Assembly: GCF_002837275.1 (NCBI RefSeq)
Contig: NZ_NXIF01000020.1
Location: 1-64,000, forward strand
Direction: 5' to 3'
DNA from: Malaciobacter halophilus
Lineage (GTDB): Bacteria > Campylobacterota > Campylobacteria > Campylobacterales > Arcobacteraceae
DNA length: 64,000 bases
Below, piece by piece: positions 2,363-64,000 of the stretch; the stretch's first letter is position 1; every line of letters starts with the position of its first letter. The notes beneath the pieces are model-generated. The model had not been told where the DNA came from. It was given only the letters and a program-made list of their open reading frames with translations, and made no database searches. Position numbers and translations under genes: made by a program.

Positions 2363-3324
2363 TGAGTAATTTAAAAGAAGTATTAACAATAGGAAGATAT
2401 TTTAGACAAAAGTTTGGAGAAACAATTTATAAAGTGCCAATTTCAATATCTGGATTTACATGTCCAAATATTGATGGAACAGTAGCAAGAGGGGGTTGTT
2501 CTTTTTGTGAGAATGACTCTTTTTCTCCAAATTTACAAGAGAATAAACCAAAGTTCAAATTAAATCCAAAAGTTGAAAAAAACCCATATTTAAATAATCA
2601 ATTAAAACAACTTGATATGCAGTTTAATGCTACAAAGCAAAGATTGGAAAATAAGTTTAATGCCAAGAAATTTATTGTTTATTTCCAATCTTTTACAAAT
2701 ACTTATGCACCATTAGATACTTTAAAAGCTTTATACTCTAAAGCTTTAAGTTATGAGAATGTTGTTGGGCTTTCAATAGGTACTAGAACAGATTGTATGA
2801 CCGATGAGATTTTAGACTATTTAGTAGAGTTATCAAAGAAAAAAGAGATTTGGATTGAGTATGGAATTCAATCTTTTTATGATGAAACTTTAGAAGAGAT
2901 AAATAGAGGTGACTCAAGTGAAAATATGAGATATTGGATAAAAAAAACAAAATCAAGAGGTTTAAATGTTTGTGGTCATCTAATCTATGGCCTTCCTGGA
3001 GAAACACAAGAGATGATGCTTGATACTTTAGAGCAAACTGTTAAATTAGATGTTGATTCTATTAAATTCCATCCTCTTTATGTAGTTAAAAATACTTTAT
3101 TAACTGCAAAGTTTAGAAATGGAAAATTTACGCCAATAAGTGAAGATTTGTATATTGATACTGTTGTAAAATCAATAAAAAAATTACCAGAAAATATCTC
3201 AATTCAAAGAGTAACTGCAGGAATTGATGATAATACACTATTATCTCCTTCATGGTGTAAAAACAAACATCAACAAATGTTTAAAATAAGAGAAGCTTTG
3301 TTAAAAGAAGGTTTTGTATATTAA
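2362..3324 (+). CDS. TIGR01212-type (YhcC-like) radical SAM protein
   Basis: The 320-residue protein has CPNIDGTVARGGCSFC near residues 34-49, a C-x11-C-x2-C cluster motif typical of the YhcC/TIGR01212 radical SAM family rather than the common C-x3-C-x2-C. GHLIYGLPGET (about residues 205-215) is the conserved second half of the radical SAM barrel. The family is distantly related to tRNA-modifying Elp3-like enzymes, but its substrate is not established to my knowledge. Its one-base overlap with purF suggests coexpression, though not necessarily a shared pathway. The 3' end lies in a bidirectional terminator shared with the LysR gene. Confidence 0.88.
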   Translation: MSNLKEVLTIGRYFRQKFGETIYKVPISISGFTCPNIDGTVARGGCSFCENDSFSPNLQENKPKFKLNPKVEKNPYLNNQLKQLDMQFNATKQRLENKFNAKKFIVYFQSFTNTYAPLDTLKALYSKALSYENVVGLSIGTRTDCMTDEILDYLVELSKKKEIWIEYGIQSFYDETLEEINRGDSSENMRYWIKKTKSRGLNVCGHLIYGLPGETQEMMLDTLEQTVKLDVDSIKFHPLYVVKNTLLTAKFRNGKFTPISEDLYIDTVVKSIKKLPENISIQRVTAGIDDNTLLSPSWCKNKHQQMFKIREALLKEGFVY

Positions 3325-3347
3325 GCTAGGAAAAGTTTCCTAAGCTT
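3323..3347. terminator. Bidirectional terminator, radical SAM gene / LysR gene
   Basis: AAGCTAGGAAA (3323-3333) pairs with TTTCCTAAGCTT (3336-3347), with one bulged base. T-rich sequence follows on the plus strand. The hairpin overlaps the stop codons of both convergent genes (3322-3324 and 3346-3348). Confidence 0.7.
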
Positions 3348-4242
3348 ATTTTATCTTAAGTAGATAGTCAACTACATTTTCAATAAAAGCATCATGTTTT
3401 CTATCTTTTCTATGGGCAATATATAGTTTTCTAACCATTTTTTGATTACCAATTCTTGATTCATATAAAGCACCTGCTTTAAGAAGTGATTCAATAGCAT
3501 TTCTTGACACAACTGAAACTGTTGGTACATCATCTTTATTTGAGTGTAAAACTGTTTGTACAATAGTTGTTGCACTTGTTACTTCACTTGTTACATTAAA
3601 TGTATCACAATCTGGATAATTTGCTTTATCTAAAGACTCTTTAAAAATTAATCTTGTATGAGAGTCTGGATTTCTACATACCCATCTATACGATAACAAA
3701 TCTTTTGCTTTTGCTTTTGCAGGTAATGGTTGATTTGAGAATATTACTATCTCATCTTCCATCCACTCTCTATAAATTATATTGTCATCTGGAATATAGT
3801 TTTCAACTAAAGCCATATCAATCTTTTTATCAAGTAAATCTTCAATTGCTTTATGAGATACAGAAACATTGATTGAAACATCATTATTGATATTCTCTTT
3901 TAGATTATTTAAAAATCTTGGTAATATATAGTTTCCAATTATAAATGAAGCACCAAATACAAAAGTTACATCTTTATTCATAATCTTTAGTAACTCTTTT
4001 TCTGCATTGTTTACACACCTTTCTATTTTTTGACCAATTGAGTAAAGCATTTGACCCTCTTTTGTAAGTCTAATACCATTTTTCTTTCTATCTACGATTT
4101 GTACATCAAGATAGTCTTCAATATACTTCATTTGCTGTGTAACTGCAGGTTGAGAAATACCAAGTTTTGCTGAAGCTTTTGAGAAAGATTTTTCCCTTAC
4201 AACAGTTAAAAATGTTTCTATTTTTGCAAAATCTGTTAGCAT
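3346..4242 (-). CDS. LysR-family transcriptional regulator
   Basis: The N-terminal 65 residues form the LysR winged helix-turn-helix: FLTVVREKSFSKASAKLGIS then QPAVTQQMKYIEDYL. Residues about 90-298 form the periplasmic-binding-protein-like effector domain. The inducer and targets cannot be read from the sequence. It is transcribed divergently from the UvrD-type helicase. A perfect 8-base inverted repeat (4255-4279) just upstream of its start is a candidate autoregulatory operator. Length (298) is normal for the family. Confidence 0.93.
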   Translation of the reverse strand: MLTDFAKIETFLTVVREKSFSKASAKLGISQPAVTQQMKYIEDYLDVQIVDRKKNGIRLTKEGQMLYSIGQKIERCVNNAEKELLKIMNKDVTFVFGASFIIGNYILPRFLNNLKENINNDVSINVSVSHKAIEDLLDKKIDMALVENYIPDDNIIYREWMEDEIVIFSNQPLPAKAKAKDLLSYRWVCRNPDSHTRLIFKESLDKANYPDCDTFNVTSEVTSATTIVQTVLHSNKDDVPTVSVVSRNAIESLLKAGALYESRIGNQKMVRKLYIAHRKDRKHDAFIENVVDYLLKIK

Positions 4243-4254
4243 TATTTTCTACCT

Positions 4255-4279
4255 TTATTATTCTTTATGATAATAATAA
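4255..4279. promoter_or_regulatory. Inverted repeat, candidate LysR operator
   Basis: TTATTATT (4255-4262) and AATAATAA (4272-4279) are perfect inverted repeats separated by 9 bases. They start 13 bases upstream of the LysR ATG, in the divergent intergenic region. LysR proteins often bind such dyads near their own promoter. In DNA this AT-rich the repeat could be chance. Confidence 0.35.
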
Positions 4280-4359: not shown

Positions 4360-6414
4360 ATGTCGGACAACTTTTTATTATCATTAAATGATTCACAAAA
4401 AAATGCAGCCCAGCATATAGATGGTGCATTACTTATTTTAGCAGGTGCTGGTTCTGGTAAAACAAAAACTATTACCACAAGATTAGCATATCTTATTTCA
4501 ATAGGAATAGACCCAGCTTCAATATTAACACTGACTTTTACAAATAAAGCAGCAACAGAGATGAGAGAAAGGGCTTATTCGCTTATTGATCCATCAATGG
4601 TACAAACACCACCTTTGCTTTGTACTTTTCATAAATTTGGATTGCTTTTATTAAAGTTTTATATGAATGAGTTAGGCAGGAAAAACAACTTTATAATTAT
4701 TGATACTGATGACAAAAAAAGAATATTAAAATCAATTGATAAAGAGTTGCCTCTTCCACTAGTTACAAGTGAGATTTCAAAATATAAAAACTCAATTTTA
4801 ACTCCTAGTGAAGCAAAAGCAGCTGCGCAATTAAAACTCTATCAAGAAGTAGCAGATGTATATGAAAAGTATGAGAACTATTTAGAAAAAAATAATCTTG
4901 TTGATTTTGACGATTTACTTTTATTACCTTATAAAATTTTATGTAATAATGAAAAACTTGCAAAAGAGCTGAGTCAAAAATATAATTATATTATGGTAGA
5001 TGAGTACCAAGATACAAATGAGTTGCAATATAAACTATTAAGAAAACTTTGTTGTACACACAACAATCTTTGTGTAGTTGGTGATGATGACCAGTCTATT
5101 TATGGTTGGCGTGGTGCAACAATAAAAAATATATTAAATTTTACAGAACATTTTGAAAATACAACAGTAGTAAAGCTAGAAGAAAATTATAGGTCAACAA
5201 ACACAATATTAGACCATGCAAACCAATTAATTGAGCATAATCGTGATAGGCTTGGTAAAAAATTAGTAGGAACAAGAGCAAAGGGAAATAGTGTAAAAGT
5301 TTATGAATCACACGATGAAAATGAAGAGACTAGAAAATTAGTTGATGACATTAAAAAACTTGTTTTAAGCGGTGAAAAAGCAAGTGATATTGCAATACTA
5401 TTTAGAGTTAATGCTTTATCAAGGTCATTGGAAGAAGGTTTTAATAAAGCTGGAATTGCATATAAATTAGTTGGTGGAATGAAGTTCTATGAAAGAGCAG
5501 AAATTAAAGACTTAATTGCTTATTTTAGAATACTTACAAACAACAATGATAACTTCTCTTTAAAAAGAATTATAAATAAACCTAAAAGAGGAATTGGAAA
5601 GACAACAATTGAAAAACTTGATGCAAAATCAGCTCAGAGTAAAAAGCCAATTTTTCAACTTTTAGAGGAGCTAGAACCAGAAGAGTTAGCAAAAGTAGTA
5701 GGAAAAAAGAACTCAAGAACACTAAAAGTGTTTATGGCCTCAGTTATGGATTTGAAAGATACATTAGAAGAGTCAAAGATGAGATTTTTAGACTCATTTG
5801 AAGATACTTTTGATTATAGAAGCTCTTATGATAATGCTCCTGATGGTTTTGATAGACAAGCAAATATTGATGAATTTTATGGATATATTAGGGACTATTT
5901 TATTCAAAATCCACATTTAGGATTAGAAGATTTTTTAAATGAGATTGCTTTAGAGTCTGAAAATAGTGAGTTTAGTGAAGAGATGGTTTCTATGATGAGT
6001 ATTCATGCTTCAAAAGGTTTGGAGTATAAACATCTGTTTATTATTGGGCTTGAAGAAGGATTTTTCCCTATTACAGGAGATGGAAGTGATATAGAAGAAG
6101 AGAGAAGACTTGGTTATGTAGCTATTACAAGAGCTATGGATAACTTGACTTTATCTTTTGTTCATTCAAGGTTTTATAAAGGGAAAAGAACAAGTCTTAC
6201 AAAAAGTAGATTTTTAAGTGAAAGTGGACTAATAAAAGGGTGTTTAACTATTGAGAAAAACTCTGCGTATAAAAAAGGAGATTTAGTAAAACATAAAATC
6301 TTTGGCATGGGAAGAGTTCAAAAAGCTGTAAAAGCTGGAAAAGATTATAAACTAACTATTAATTTTAGTGGACAAAGACGAGATATATTATCCTCTTTTG
6401 TAGAAAAAATTTAG
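4360..6414 (+). CDS. uvrD: UvrD/Rep/PcrA-type ATP-dependent DNA helicase (SF1A)
   Basis: Starting at ATG 4360, the protein is 684 residues. Seen in order: LNDSQKNAA (Q motif), LAGAGSGKT (Walker A, about residue 30), LTLTFTNKAATEM (Ia), MVDEYQDTN (Walker B), GDDDQSIYGWRGA (III), LEENYRSTN (IV), MMSIHASKGLEYKHLF (V) and YVAITRAMDNLTLSF (VI). It unwinds DNA 3' to 5' in repair and replication. It lacks the C-terminal nuclease of AddA. Whether UvrD, Rep or PcrA is the best name cannot be settled without a tree; the name uvrD is conventional for the single enzyme of this type in Campylobacterota. Confidence 0.92.
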   Translation: MSDNFLLSLNDSQKNAAQHIDGALLILAGAGSGKTKTITTRLAYLISIGIDPASILTLTFTNKAATEMRERAYSLIDPSMVQTPPLLCTFHKFGLLLLKFYMNELGRKNNFIIIDTDDKKRILKSIDKELPLPLVTSEISKYKNSILTPSEAKAAAQLKLYQEVADVYEKYENYLEKNNLVDFDDLLLLPYKILCNNEKLAKELSQKYNYIMVDEYQDTNELQYKLLRKLCCTHNNLCVVGDDDQSIYGWRGATIKNILNFTEHFENTTVVKLEENYRSTNTILDHANQLIEHNRDRLGKKLVGTRAKGNSVKVYESHDENEETRKLVDDIKKLVLSGEKASDIAILFRVNALSRSLEEGFNKAGIAYKLVGGMKFYERAEIKDLIAYFRILTNNNDNFSLKRIINKPKRGIGKTTIEKLDAKSAQSKKPIFQLLEELEPEELAKVVGKKNSRTLKVFMASVMDLKDTLEESKMRFLDSFEDTFDYRSSYDNAPDGFDRQANIDEFYGYIRDYFIQNPHLGLEDFLNEIALESENSEFSEEMVSMMSIHASKGLEYKHLFIIGLEEGFFPITGDGSDIEEERRLGYVAITRAMDNLTLSFVHSRFYKGKRTSLTKSRFLSESGLIKGCLTIEKNSAYKKGDLVKHKIFGMGRVQKAVKAGKDYKLTINFSGQRRDILSSFVEKI

Positions 6415-6462
6415 ACTATTAATTAGTTTAAATAAAATGAAAAATTAATAAGTGGAAAATAA

Positions 6463-7311
6463 ATGCAGAAAAGATTTTATGAAAAAGAACCATTAAATAA
6501 ATTATTGGTTGTAAATAAACCTATGTATGTTAGCTCAAATTCATACTTAAATAGAATCAAAAGAGCATATAGAAATAAAAAAGCAGGTTTTAGTGGTACA
6601 CTTGACCCTTTTGCTTGTGGATGTTTGATTGTTGCTTTTGGTCAATATACAAAACTTTTTAAGTACTTTAAAAAAACACCTAAAACTTATAAAGCTGTAT
6701 TATGGCTTGGTGCTACTTCTTATTCTGAAGATATAGAAAATATTATTGATATTAAAGATGAAAAAGTTTTGAAGTATGAGCAAATAGAAAAAGTAATACA
6801 AAGTTTAAAAAAAGAAATAGAGTATCTTCCTCCTAAATATTGTGCAAAAAAGATAAATGGTAAAAGAGCTTATGAACTTGCAAGAGCAGGTGAAGAAGTA
6901 AGTTTAAAAAAACAAACAATGAAAATAAGTAATATTAAACTTATCTCTTATATGCATCCTTTTATTACATTTGAAGCAAGTGTTAGTGAAGGTTCATATA
7001 TTAGAAGTTTAGGACAAATAATTGCTAAAGAACTTGGTGTTAAAGGCACTTTATCTTATCTTCAAAGATTAAATGAAGGAAAATTCTTTTTTGATAATCA
7101 AAAAGAGTTAGACCCAATTGAATATTTGGATTTGGAAGTTAATACATACACTGGAACAAAAAAGTGTTTAGATGATGGTAAAAAAATATCAATAGAGTAT
7201 TTAGAAAAAAAAGATGATGGGAAATATCTCATTTTATTTGAAGAGTTTTTTAGTATAATCGAAATTTCAAATATGGAAGTATCATATATATTAAATAAGG
7301 TAAGAAGATAA
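6463..7311 (+). CDS. truB: tRNA pseudouridine-55 synthase
   Basis: TruB makes pseudouridine 55 in the T-arm of tRNAs. The motif AGFSGTLDPFACGCLIVA (about residues 42-59) holds the catalytic Asp of the GTLDP signature. KTYKAVLWLGATSYSED and EGSYIRSL are further conserved segments. At 282 residues it is close to the minimal TruB without the long PUA extension of E. coli (314). The stop abuts the ispE start with no gap, so truB, ispE and smpB form a tightly coupled operon. Confidence 0.94.
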   Translation: MQKRFYEKEPLNKLLVVNKPMYVSSNSYLNRIKRAYRNKKAGFSGTLDPFACGCLIVAFGQYTKLFKYFKKTPKTYKAVLWLGATSYSEDIENIIDIKDEKVLKYEQIEKVIQSLKKEIEYLPPKYCAKKINGKRAYELARAGEEVSLKKQTMKISNIKLISYMHPFITFEASVSEGSYIRSLGQIIAKELGVKGTLSYLQRLNEGKFFFDNQKELDPIEYLDLEVNTYTGTKKCLDDGKKISIEYLEKKDDGKYLILFEEFFSIIEISNMEVSYILNKVRR

Positions 7312-52899: not shown

Positions 52900-53295
52900 T
52901 TACCAACTTCTAACTATAGAGTGACATCTTGAACATGCATTTAAGATATCTGAGTATGCATTTGCAGCATTTAAATATGCTTTATCATCTAAATTTAGCT
53001 CTAAAATATTAATATCTAAAGTAATTCTTTTAGAAGCATTAGATGCAACATTTACCATATGTTTTTTATCTTTTGGTAAATATTTAGCAATGATTTTTTC
53101 ATCAGAAAATAATTTATTTCCATCTTGAACAAGTTTAGCACCACTTCTAATTAATTCAATATTGTTATTTAAAAAACCTTGTTGAATTTGAGTCATTCCT
53201 TGTTCCATAATAGACATAGATTTCTGCATAACATCTTGTGCACTAGCCACACCAAATGCTAATGTACATGCTAATACGATTTTTCCTAACTTCAT
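52900..53295 (-). CDS. Periplasmic cytochrome c'-like protein
   Basis: The 131-residue protein has a signal peptide (about residues 1-19, ending GVASAQ) and then only helical-looking sequence, ending in CSRCHS (about residues 122-127). A heme motif at the C-terminal end of a helix bundle is the layout of cytochromes c' and c-556. The ligand-binding role of c' proteins (NO, O2) cannot be concluded here. It is monocistronic, just downstream of petC. Confidence 0.8.
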   Translation of the reverse strand: MKLGKIVLACTLAFGVASAQDVMQKSMSIMEQGMTQIQQGFLNNNIELIRSGAKLVQDGNKLFSDEKIIAKYLPKDKKHMVNVASNASKRITLDINILELNLDDKAYLNAANAYSDILNACSRCHSIVRSW

Positions 53296-57738: not shown

Positions 57739-58641
57739 CTAAATTTCGTTTAATAGTTTTTCTATATCTATTCCGTTGTTATTTCCATCTTTTCTAACAA
57801 ACTGTGTTCCAATTCCATCACTAGTAAATAGTTCTAAAAGAATAGAGTGTTCAACTCTTCCATCAATAATATGTGCTTTATTTACACCATTATAAATAGC
57901 ATCTATACATGAATCAACCTTTGGAATCATACCACCTGCAATTGTTCCATCTTTTTTGTATTTATTTACATCACTTTTATCAAGTGAGTTTAAAAGTTTA
58001 CCTTCTTTATCTAATACACCTTTTGTATCTGTTAAAAATAGTACTTTTTGAGCATTTATGGCACTTGCAACTTTACTTGCTGCTACATCTGCATTTATAT
58101 TAAACCCAGGATGATTTGGTTTTGCACTATCGGCAATAGGAGCAATTACTGGAATAAAACCCTCTTTTACAAGGTTATTTATTAGTTGACCATTAACTTC
58201 TGTTACAACACCTGTATATCCAAACTTACCATCTTCTTTAGGCATAGCTTTAATAATAGATGAGTCTTTCCCTGAAATACCAATAGCTTTTGCTCCATGA
58301 TAATTTAAAAGTGAAGTTATATTTTTATTTATATCTCCACTTAAAACCATCTCAACTATTCTCATTGTTTGTTCACTAGTAACTCTATGTCCATCAACAA
58401 ATTTAGATTCAATACCTAATTTTTCAAGTAGTTCAGAGATTCTAGCTCCACCACCATGTACAATAACAGGATTCATTCCTACTAGTTTTAATAATACTAT
58501 GTCTTCTGCAAACTTTTCTTGAAGTTCTGGTGAAGTTTGTGCCGAACCACCATATTTAATAACAATAGTTTTTCCATAAAACTTTTTTATATGCGGAATA
58601 GCATCAAGTAAGACTTGAACTTTTTGATATTTTTTTTGCAT
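57739..58641 (-). CDS. argB: Acetylglutamate kinase
   Basis: ArgB phosphorylates N-acetylglutamate in arginine synthesis. The 300-residue protein has KTIVIKYGGSAQTSPELQEK (about residues 20-39), NPVIVHGGGARISELLEKLG, NINADVAASKVA and LFLTDTKGVLD, all amino-acid kinase motifs. An N-terminal extension of about 18 residues resembles that of arginine-sensitive ArgB enzymes, so feedback inhibition is possible. It has a clear -10 and leads argB-thrC. Confidence 0.96.
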   Translation of the reverse strand: MQKKYQKVQVLLDAIPHIKKFYGKTIVIKYGGSAQTSPELQEKFAEDIVLLKLVGMNPVIVHGGGARISELLEKLGIESKFVDGHRVTSEQTMRIVEMVLSGDINKNITSLLNYHGAKAIGISGKDSSIIKAMPKEDGKFGYTGVVTEVNGQLINNLVKEGFIPVIAPIADSAKPNHPGFNINADVAASKVASAINAQKVLFLTDTKGVLDKEGKLLNSLDKSDVNKYKKDGTIAGGMIPKVDSCIDAIYNGVNKAHIIDGRVEHSILLELFTSDGIGTQFVRKDGNNNGIDIEKLLNEI

Positions 58642-58701: not shown

Positions 58702-58725
58702 AGAAGTAGGAAAGTTCCTACTTCT
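58702..58725 (-). terminator. Intrinsic terminator after the diguanylate cyclase gene
   Basis: AGAAGTAGGAA (58702-58712) and TTCCTACTTCT (58715-58725) form a perfect 11-bp stem with a very small loop. On the minus strand a short TTTT follows. The stop codon (58718-58720) is inside the stem. Confidence 0.75.
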
Positions 58726-60541
58726 GTAAAAGTTCAGCTTTGAAAGCTACTACTTTATTTCTTCCTGTCTCTTTTGCTTCATATAAAGCTAAGTCAGCAT
58801 ATTTGATACAATCTTTTACATTATTATTGTCTTTTGGATACATAGATGTTCCAATACTCATGGTTTTTGAAATTGTAGTACTTCCAGCTGGAATTTTTTT
58901 CTCAGCAAAAGCATTTTTAATTTTAAGTGCAAGAGATTCTACTGCTTTTTCATCACAATTGTATAAAAGAACAATAAACTCTTCTCCTCCAAACCTTACA
59001 ATAATATCTGATTCTCTTGTATTCTCAATTAGTGTTTCAGCTACAATTTTTATTGCATTATCACCCACATCATGTCCATATGTATCATTTACCATTTTAA
59101 AATGGTCTATATCTACCATTAAAACACCAAATTTAACATTTGCTCTTGTTGCTTGTGCTGTAATTTTATCTATTGAATCATCTAAATATTTTCTATTATA
59201 TAGTCCTGTTAATGGGTCTGTTCTTGCATTAAGCTCCAGAATATTCATAAGTTTTTTACTTACAATAACAGTTTTAGCAGAATCAATATAATCTTGAATA
59301 TATGGAATAATTTCTCTTATTCTTTGTGTCTCTTTTACTGAATCTGTATAAATAGAGACAATTAAATCAAGCTCATTAGAGATTGAATAAGGAATACAAA
59401 AATAGTTAACATTATCACATTTATCACAAGATGAACAAACATCTTTAAATTGTGTTGAATCTATGATTGTATTTGTTCTATCCGCTCTACAACCAGTCTC
59501 AACAATATTACAATACATCTGTTCTTGTACATATACAACTTCTATTTTATTGTTGATTGTATCTGATTCAAAGAAGTTAAAGTTTTTAATATCTAATTTA
59601 TCTCTAAATACATGAGCAAGTCTTGAGTAAATCTCATCTAAAGTTTCATCATATTCAATTGTTTTTCTAAATCTATAAACATCAGATAATCTATCTACTG
59701 TATTTTTTACATTTATTAAGTGGTCTTTCTCTTCAATTAAATTATCAGATAAGAAAATTGATATTTTAGAATCAATTGCATCAAGAGTAATTTCAAGTTT
59801 TTCTAATAATCCATTAATCCATGAAGCTACATCTTTTGCTTCTTTACCTTGTGCATTCTCAATTCTATGTGAATAATCTCCACTTTGTGCTTTATTCATA
59901 ACTTTTTTTATCTCATCAAATAAACTTAAAAATGGAGAGATTAAAAAGTTAATTAAAAATATAATTATAATCATTAAAACAAGGGCAATTATTGCAGTAT
60001 GAGTAACTGTTGTAATTCCAACTTCTTTTGAATCATCAATAGACATAGTAATAGTAATTGCACCTAAAGTATCACCCTCTTTAGCATTTGTATGACACTT
60101 CATACAGTCAATTTTTCCTTGACTTGTGGCAATATATGGAATAGTGATTCTATAATGACTTTTAGAAAAGATATTTTCAGTGATAACTCTTTTTGTTTCT
60201 CCTGTTTTTAAAACCTCTTTATCTACATCATCCCTTGCGATTTCATTATTAAATCCAATTCCGAACATATCAACTACATCTTGTCCTCTACTTAACCAAA
60301 TTTTATCAATATTTGGAAGGTCTTCTAGTTGACTTAAGAAAAGCTCTCTGTTTTCAATAACACCAGTGACCATTTGAGAAGTTAGTGAGTGTTCAATAGT
60401 TTTTGCTAGAGCTTGAGCTTTTGCATCGATATTCTTTACACCATAATCCCTAAAATTATAGATTAAGTTTGCAATTAGTAAAACAAACATTGCGAATGTA
60501 ATAAAAATCACAAGAAAGATAATCTTATTTTTTGTCTGCAT
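58718..60541 (-). CDS. Membrane diguanylate cyclase with periplasmic CxxCH heme motif
   Basis: The protein has 607 residues from ATG 60541 (GGAG five bases upstream; a GTG at 60547 overlaps that site). Order: membrane helix (about 7-27), a periplasmic domain with CMKCH (C146, C149, H150) like the Tll0287/DUF3365 heme-sensing group, a second helix (about 182-204), a HAMP region (to about 262), a Cys-rich GAF-like region (ETGCRADRT, CSSCDKC), and a GGDEF domain. GGEEF is at 518-522, with I-site RESD at 509-512. It should make c-di-GMP under product inhibition. Redox or gas sensing through c-type heme is inference. Confidence 0.87.
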   Translation of the reverse strand: MQTKNKIIFLVIFITFAMFVLLIANLIYNFRDYGVKNIDAKAQALAKTIEHSLTSQMVTGVIENRELFLSQLEDLPNIDKIWLSRGQDVVDMFGIGFNNEIARDDVDKEVLKTGETKRVITENIFSKSHYRITIPYIATSQGKIDCMKCHTNAKEGDTLGAITITMSIDDSKEVGITTVTHTAIIALVLMIIIIFLINFLISPFLSLFDEIKKVMNKAQSGDYSHRIENAQGKEAKDVASWINGLLEKLEITLDAIDSKISIFLSDNLIEEKDHLINVKNTVDRLSDVYRFRKTIEYDETLDEIYSRLAHVFRDKLDIKNFNFFESDTINNKIEVVYVQEQMYCNIVETGCRADRTNTIIDSTQFKDVCSSCDKCDNVNYFCIPYSISNELDLIVSIYTDSVKETQRIREIIPYIQDYIDSAKTVIVSKKLMNILELNARTDPLTGLYNRKYLDDSIDKITAQATRANVKFGVLMVDIDHFKMVNDTYGHDVGDNAIKIVAETLIENTRESDIIVRFGGEEFIVLLYNCDEKAVESLALKIKNAFAEKKIPAGSTTISKTMSIGTSMYPKDNNNVKDCIKYADLALYEAKETGRNKVVAFKAELLQK

Positions 60542-60640
60542 ATTCACTCCAAAAAAAATAGTAATCTTAATAATAACATTAAAATAATAAAATAAGGAAA
60601 TATTAAATTTAAAATATGGGAAAATTTAACATTTCTTTTG

Positions 60641-63400: not shown

Positions 63401-63416
63401 GATAAACTTACTCTTT
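63392..63416. terminator. Bidirectional terminator, addA / chemotaxis receptor
   Basis: AAAGAGTAAG (63392-63401) and CTTACTCTTT (63407-63416) form a perfect 10-bp stem with an ATAAA loop. It contains the addA stop (63398-63400) and the receptor stop (63408-63410). Confidence 0.85.
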
Positions 63417-64000
63417 AATTTTAGCTTTTTTAGCTTCATTTACAATTTGGTTTGCAATCTCATTTGTATCTGTTGAGATTTCATCTGCTTTATTTGCAAT
63501 ATGTGCATTTGATTGTGTTATTTGGTCAAGTGAATTAACTGCATCATTTATCTGTTCAATTCCATGAAGTTGCTCTTTTGAGTTGTTTGTAACTTCTTGA
63601 GATAATTCTCTTGATTTTTTTATACTCTCTTCTAAAAGTTTATAACCTTCAATCATCTCATTTGCAATCTCTTTTCCTTCATTTGCTTTAAGTGCAGCAT
63701 TTTCTACAATCTTTTTTATCTCATTTGCAGCTTGTGCACTTCTATTGGCTAGATTTCTAACTTCTTGGGCAACTACTGCAAAACCTTTTCCAGCTTCTCC
63801 TGCTGTTGCTGCTTCTACTGCTGCATTTAAACTTAAAATATTTGTTTGAAATGCTATTTGGTCAATTACTGTAATTGCTTGAGCAATTGAGTCTGTTTGC
63901 TCATTTATATCATCCATTGAGTTTGCTGTATTATTTGCTGAAATTTTACCTGTTTCTACTTCTTTTATTAATCTATTTGATGTTTCATCCATAGTTCTCA
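63408..64000 (-). CDS. Methyl-accepting chemotaxis protein, C-terminal part (partial)
   Basis: Only the signalling end is in the window; the gene continues past its right edge. The part seen (about 197 codons) is a long helical coiled coil with the hairpin tip [20 protein letters not shown] then [20 protein letters not shown], the site that binds CheA and CheW. The downstream helix has Glu/Gln-rich patches typical of methylation helices. The sensor domain is not visible, so the ligand is unknown. No pentapeptide CheR tether is seen at the C terminus. Confidence 0.93.

Follow-up and report, generated by a model that had tools for sequence, protein, structure and literature searches.

The gene described here lies on the minus strand of the window, by which we mean the whole stretch of 64,000 nucleotides of Malaciobacter halophilus DNA (contig NZ_NXIF01000020.1) that was analysed. 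Its open reading frame runs from an ATG at 60541 to a stop codon at 58718-58720 and encodes a product of 607 amino acids. An in-frame GTG at 60547, two codons 5' of this ATG, is the mechanical start, and a GGAG, read from the sequence, stands about 8 bases ahead of the ATG at 60541. No terminator was found between positions 58500 and 60800, where about none was expected by chance. The following features were assigned along the gene.

58718..60541, minus strand: whole gene, 607 amino acids, in the order transmembrane helix, heme Cache domain, transmembrane helix, HAMP-like linker, Cys4 GAF domain, GGDEF domain
60461..60523, minus strand: first transmembrane helix (TM1), about residues 7-27 (Kyte-Doolittle scan)
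60008..60460, minus strand: predicted periplasmic single-Cache domain with the c-heme motif, about residues 28-178 (AlphaFold2 model, fold and profile matches)
60371..60373, minus strand: Met57, predicted distal heme ligand (alignment to GSU0935 Met60; conservation)
60092..60106, minus strand: CMKCH heme c attachment motif, C146-H150 (sequence, conservation)
59933..60001, minus strand: second transmembrane helix (TM2), about residues 181-203 (Kyte-Doolittle scan)
59756..59932, minus strand: HAMP-like linker, about residues 204-262 (weak matches in relatives, none in the query)
59234..59722, minus strand: predicted cytoplasmic Cys4 GAF-fold domain, about residues 274-436 (model and fold matches)
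59396..59512, minus strand: Cys4 motif C344, C351, C369, C382, with the lineage-specific extras C372 and C375 (conservation)
58754..59224, minus strand: GGDEF diguanylate cyclase domain (Pfam PF00990)
59006..59017, minus strand: I-site RESD, residues 509-512 (sequence)
58976..58990, minus strand: active-site GGEEF, residues 518-522 (sequence)

The output domain and its chromosomal surroundings

The GGDEF domain (PF00990, E 7.2e-48) is the sole domain that Pfam and NCBIfam name above threshold in the 607-residue query. The intact GGEEF (from residue 518) and the I-site RESD (from residue 509) are both present, as the first-pass annotation had stated. Among the 185 frames compared, GGEEF is intact in 168 and replaced by GGDTF or SGDTF in seven, and the ten frames without the motif comprise one truncated frame and nine degenerate second copies in Sulfuricurvum-type loci. 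The RxxD motif accompanies a recognised active-site motif in 158 of 175 frames and is missing from the other 17. The existence of sister paralogues with degenerate GGDTF or SGDTF motifs in Sulfuricurvum-type loci lends some weight to the idea of a c-di-GMP receptor or pseudo-cyclase in place of a synthase, but the copy studied here has both GGEEF and RESD, and we regard this alternative as very unlikely and treat the protein as a synthase. In one Sulfuricurvum-type locus (L098, frames 2427-4268 and 6249-4354) two members that share the heme and Cys4 sensor adjoin on opposite strands, one with GGEEF and the other degenerate (e.g., SGDTF), and the arrangement is similar in L156, L168, and L174; such side-by-side members are possible cyclase/receptor pairs. 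The linker between TM2 and the Cys4 domain is called HAMP-like with reservation: Pfam HAMP gives no match in the query, PF00672 matches weakly in one of 52 relatives (E 0.0026) and in one of nine distant relatives (E 0.001), and HAMP_2 matches, again weakly, in one of these nine (E 0.023).

The gene had been placed next to the bc1 genes and linked to them. The adjacency does not hold, as argB and thrC intervene, and bc1 genes accompany the cyclase only at L032, L035, L059, and L069 of the loci compared, many of which (L001-L030) are too short to reach bc1. In close orthologues the cyclase is flanked by argB and a UvrD-like gene, which is not the case in other members, and in many Sulfurimonas-type loci the neighbours are different housekeeping genes that, judged from their first residues, resemble glmS, glnD, mrp, and thiC. 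Since the flanks differ outside the close orthologues and no shared functional neighbour was seen among the loci compared, coupling to bc1 was dropped, and the bc1 neighbourhood is chromosomal backbone. Two further frames in this region deserve mention in their own right. A 131-residue exported-looking protein with a C-terminal CSRCH (52900-53295), for which no Pfam match above threshold was obtained, adjoins the bc1 genes, and the neighbouring chemoreceptor (63408-64000, continuing in L211) is a 770-residue frame without CxxCH.

The periplasmic domain and its predicted heme ligands

In the Kyte-Doolittle scan, hydrophobic stretches at residues 3-31 and 173-211 flank the CMKCH motif, which is therefore periplasmic by topology. 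Conservation was counted over 182 distinct homologous heme domains and 184 distinct Cys4 domains, a set that leaves aside L084 of G111 and the loci L191-L210, which were added later in search of exceptions. C146 and C149 are present in 182 of the 182 heme domains and H150 in 181, so that the motif is not due to chance; loss of CxxCH in orthologues had been named as the observation that would speak against a heme sensor, and the comparison shows the motif retained. Likewise, 67 full-length homologues all have both cysteines of CxxCH, and 66 of them have the histidine. These 67 are the rows that remained once the partial rows L066, L067, and L068 and the secondary matches L062_1 and L066_1 had been set aside, and they were thinned to 52 at 86% identity for building the profile. 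The homologue at L066 (G072 C57) contains many stops and is probably a pseudogene or an assembly error.

The AlphaFold2 model of the periplasmic domain (pLDDT 86.1) has a Cache fold. Among the fold matches listed, WalK is the best (Z 11.6, rmsd 3.0, 128 residues aligned), followed by Tll0287, the heme protein on which the family was founded (5b82; Z 9.9, rmsd 3.7, 121 residues aligned). CxxCH (model residues 120-124) is placed on a short helix (120-123) between the strands 103-111 and 132-141, which are strands 3 and 4 of the fold. The first-pass annotation was thus correct in locating CMKCH at C146-H150 between the two transmembrane segments, whereas a position between two helices of the domain has to give way to the short-helix placement just described. 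A short CxxCH helix inserted between these same two strands defines sCache_heme domains in the available text of PMC12889525.

At the sequence level, the profile of the 52 relatives matches GSU0935 (3b42) with an E-value of 6.8e-4 over most of the domain and with CxxCH in register. Because the unrelated PrgX scores nearly as well with the same profile (E 0.0015-0.0024, over a helical part only), the E-value for 3b42 is modest by itself, and GSU0935 is absent from the PDB sequence matches of the query alone, being found only through the profile of its relatives. Pfam families give a graded picture: PF11845 matches 19 of the 52 relatives (best E 0.011) and PF21563 matches 14 (best E 1.6e-6), while the query has no match to either at E<=1 in the Pfam search, and PF11845 was dropped as its label since the match lies below threshold. 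By predicted fold and the in-register profile match, we assign the periplasmic domain to the sCache_heme type represented by GSU0935 and Tll0287.

The comparison with GSU0935 also yields a predicted distal heme ligand. The chain residues C106, C109, and H110 of the GSU0935 structure correspond to the published C140, C143, and H144, hence chain Met26 is Met60, and the profile alignment places Met57 of the query at this very residue. The available sections of PMC8396549 give His144 and Met60 of one subunit as the heme ligands of GSU0935, the methionine being bound when the heme is reduced, detached when it is oxidised, and displaced by CO or NO. Since Met57 aligns with the distal ligand Met60, ligation of the heme by His150 and Met57 is predicted. 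Met57 is present in 178 of the 182 domains; two of the four exceptions are truncated at this position, and the other two are L061, with Val in its place, and L048, with Asn. L048 is also the only row lacking the heme histidine: in this frame (4952-6832) CINCI replaces CxxCH and Met57 is lost as well, with the Cys4 site and GGEEF kept. A methionine occupies the equivalent place in all seven heme-Cache domains examined on MCP, GGDEF-EAL, and HD-GYP outputs (L204-L210), one of which (L207, 1904-3310) is a heme-Cache fused to an apparent HD-GYP domain. Two distant members (L200, L202) have neither CxxCH nor Met, and two others (L061, L201) keep CxxCH without Met; the exceptions in this comparison are few, and some are kin.

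The earlier proposal that a diguanylate cyclase here bears a periplasmic sensor with covalent heme is well supported by conservation, fold, and profile match, and the periplasmic domain of the cyclase very probably carries covalent heme c. That CxxCH stays without heme in vivo and that the domain binds a small ligand instead would suit its standard Cache fold and the existence of heme-less members; nevertheless, with CxxCH intact in 181 of 182 domains, Met57 tracking CxxCH, and genes for cytochrome c assembly present in the same genome (PF01578 in two large frames of 928 and 1062 residues), this is hardly to be expected.

The cytoplasmic four-cysteine domain

Residues 274-436 match no Pfam family in the query and have no sequence relative in the PDB (best E 0.89), and the Pfam GAF family is not among the first 25 of the 51 families listed for 52 members. 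The model of this region (pLDDT 84.7) nevertheless adopts a GAF fold, with 5w10 as the best match (Z 13.1, rmsd 3.4, 156 residues aligned), and the GAF domain of NifA (8jrc) matches it with Z 11.3. The domain contains a striking concentration of cysteines: residues 340-384 hold four to seven of them in all 184 members, compared with a Cys content of 0.4% over its remaining residues. C344 is conserved in 181, C351 in 184, C369 in 183, and C382 in 184 of the 184 distinct domains, and an arginine directly follows C351 in 182. The spacing C351-X17-C369 is invariant in the 183 members in which it was measured, and the first and last gaps vary (5-14 and 10-14 residues, respectively). According to the secondary structure of the model, the four cysteines are spread from beyond the second strand into the strand of C382, a region that we infer to be the usual lid of the GAF pocket.

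The first reading of this protein had located a second, cytoplasmic redox switch at the CSSCDKC sequence. The idea of a second conserved site stands, as there is a Cys4 site in a predicted GAF fold, but it was misplaced: within CSSCDKC only the first cysteine, C369, is conserved (183/184), position 372 being Cys in 109 and position 375 in 20 of the 184 domains. The full CSSCDKC sequence is a lineage trait, and the conserved unit consists of the four cysteines C344, C351, C369, and C382, set in a domain of predicted GAF fold to which no Pfam family could be assigned in the query. Four members that lack one canonical cysteine all carry Cys372, which hints that this residue makes up for the missing one, a suggestion to be weighed against its presence in 109 of the 184 domains anyway.

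The cofactor of this site is most likely an iron-sulfur cluster, with zinc or a thiol switch as the second choice; the assignment is a guess, and no CxxC pair is common to all members. A structural zinc site or a thiol/disulfide switch in place of the cluster is quite conceivable, if short of an even chance. Zinc suits four conserved cysteines equally well, and the site is retained where the periplasmic domain has been lost, as would be expected of a structural element. On the other hand, the cysteines have been lost wholesale in the members L199-L202, in which GGEEF is kept, which speaks against an essential structural site, as do the variable first and last spacings.

Distribution, candidate signals, and known systems

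Within the same family, 89 of 104 genomes have homologues at E<=1e-40, often in two or more copies. In a sample of 298 genomes from the whole order, the Cys4-GAF profile matched 138, representing 50 of 81 genera; in a sample of 200 from the whole phylum it matched 51, and the matches listed there all come from the same order. A contig scan of named genomes returned 192 relatives, and the 80 that were retained carry names like Sulfurimonas and Sulfuricurvum. Heme and Cys4 are widely found together among the relatives of Sulfurimonas and Campylobacter. The Cys4 domain gave no tblastn match against 72,556 plasmid records, and spread by plasmids was discarded as an explanation. A quick tree (106 rows, thinned, with only every sixth of L101-L180), in which long branches were flagged, is taken as evidence for no more than the existence of several paralogue groups.

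The two sensor domains usually occur together: 192 frames in the loci examined contain both, three only Cys4 (one a fragment), and one, a fragment, only the heme domain, with overlapping loci counted more than once. In the groups f15 and f12, however, 11 of the 11 members examined (L090, L092, L191-L198, L203) keep Cys4 without the heme domain, the first cysteine of L194 being displaced in the alignment, and the heme domain is therefore dispensable for the enzyme. In group f13, whose members L199-L202 are distant, weakly aligned, and left with no or one cysteine at the Cys4 site, L199 and L201 keep CxxCH, L200 and L202 have lost both sites, and all have GGEEF. As some lineages have given up only the heme and others only Cys4, the two are separable inputs. 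These separate, unit-wise losses suit a pair of sensor sites better than a single one and make it less likely that electrons must pass between the two.

The protein is probably a membrane diguanylate cyclase with a heme c single-Cache domain outside and a Cys4 GAF domain inside, both of which steer GGDEF. Support for this reading is at the level of sequence and comprises conservation, the fold class of the models, the register with GSU0935, the catalytic motifs, and the cytochrome c assembly genes; heme attachment and ligation, the Cys4 cofactor, the signal, and the sign of the response are what we infer. In the proposed mechanism, the heme c outside would be held by His150 and by Met57 of the first helix in a resting reduced form. 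Oxidation of the iron or binding of NO would release Met57 and move the N-terminal helix, and this movement would be passed through TM2 to the HAMP-like linker. The Cys4 GAF domain inside would report cytoplasmic O2, NO, or redox state, both sensors would act on how the GGDEF dimer is arranged and thereby on c-di-GMP synthesis, and RESD would provide product feedback.

By analogy with the characterised proteins, coupling of redox state or NO to c-di-GMP, as first proposed, is plausible, and O2 sensing by the heme domain is less likely because, according to the available text of PMC12889525, the sCache_heme proteins that have been characterised do not bind O2 in a stable complex. The heme domain might be specifically an NO sensor, any redox change being incidental. 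The same text describes a signal-fused sCache_heme protein of P. azotoformans that holds NO, releases it slowly, and forms no stable O2 complex, and according to the sections available of PMC8396549, GSU0582 and GSU0935 both take up NO whether oxidised or reduced, and on the reduced heme Met60 gives way to NO or CO. The latter work, however, supports a redox-linked ligand switch. Moreover, cytochrome cd1 (PF02239) was matched in 56 of 138 genomes with Cys4 versus 69 of 160 without it (Fisher p 0.72), and strong NirS-like matches in 16 of 138 versus 23 of 160 (p 0.50), a test that ignores kinship and whose marker, Cys4, takes in some heme-less members. A link to NO or denitrification by phylogenetic profile was accordingly rejected, and since the genome of the query has no PF02239 match either, a role in endogenous denitrification is not supported. 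We consider a dedicated NO sensor rather doubtful, and external NO or redox potential remain as signals. With low confidence, redox is slightly favoured over NO for the Cys4-paired heme family because the methionine is conserved.

The same input appears on several outputs in the genome of the query, which has 2.75 Mb and 39 GGDEF matches. Five heme-Cache matches were obtained, namely the query, a paralogue on C31, proteins on C7 and C38, and an MCP on C90, all of which have CxxCH and Met (aligned or by eye). In their translations, the C7 (L205/L212) and C38 (L217) proteins join the heme-Cache domain to a degenerate GGDEF and then an EAL region, so that the heme input would here serve a putative enzyme of c-di-GMP breakdown. 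A search of this genome for PilZ gave nothing at E<=0.001, hence its effectors of c-di-GMP either belong to another type or have diverged.

Campylobacterales live on redox gradients, and to our knowledge the inputs that set their c-di-GMP level are largely unknown. The pairing hints that redox state or nitric oxide may act directly on their surface lifestyle. A more far-reaching and tentative reading, which we would place slightly on the doubtful side, is an ancient two-compartment sensor of the Campylobacterales, in which one enzyme compares across the membrane the redox/NO state of the periplasm, sensed by the His/Met heme c, with that of the cytoplasm, sensed by the Cys4 iron-sulfur GAF domain, and sets c-di-GMP accordingly. 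If true, c-di-GMP synthesis, its breakdown, and motility would all be under the control of a single periplasmic signal, as two EAL-type proteins and a chemoreceptor of this genome share the kind of heme sensor. A widespread candidate c-di-GMP input is now defined per residue, as a predicted His/Met heme switch and an unnamed Cys4 GAF domain, and the natural members with both sites, either one, or neither are ready controls for establishing which signal reaches the cyclase.

Heme-sensor cyclases are already known in outline. Fusions of sCache_heme to GGDEF/EAL and the presence of this domain in more than 50% of Campylobacterota genomes are given by the Deshpande et al. 2026 preprint (PMC12889525), the available part of which does not name the family of the query, the Met ligand, or the cytoplasmic Cys4 domain. 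In the literature searched (titles and the beginnings of abstracts, with few subscription journals), we found neither the order-wide pairing of heme with Cys4-GAF nor the query's family, its Met signature across Campylobacterales, or the Cys4-GAF domain itself. The sCache_heme family (DUF3365/Tll0287, PF11845) has in common with the query the Cache fold and the CxxCH insert between strands 3 and 4, although the query scores below its Pfam model.

For the cytoplasmic domain, the available sections of PMC4601167 offer two comparisons. AirS of Staphylococcus aureus, a sensor kinase with a [2Fe-2S] cluster on CX7CXCX17C, has a four-Cys sensor region and the X17 spacing in common with the query, which may be coincidence; its output is a kinase and the other spacings differ. 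NreB of staphylococci, a PAS domain with [4Fe-4S], likewise places four cysteines in a small sensor domain ahead of the output, but it is PAS rather than GAF and a soluble kinase. DcrA of Desulfovibrio vulgaris resembles the query in combining a periplasmic c heme with a cytoplasmic sensor-fold domain and differs in its MCP output and in a cytoplasmic PAS domain without heme, for which the available text of PMC8396549 mentions no Cys4. GSU0935 and GSU0582 of Geobacter sulfurreducens (3B42, 3B47) differ from the query in their MCP output and the lack of a Cys4 GAF domain; like the query, they have a periplasmic Cache/PAS-like domain with one c heme between two transmembrane helices, and GSU0935 shares with it both CxxCH and the distal Met in register.
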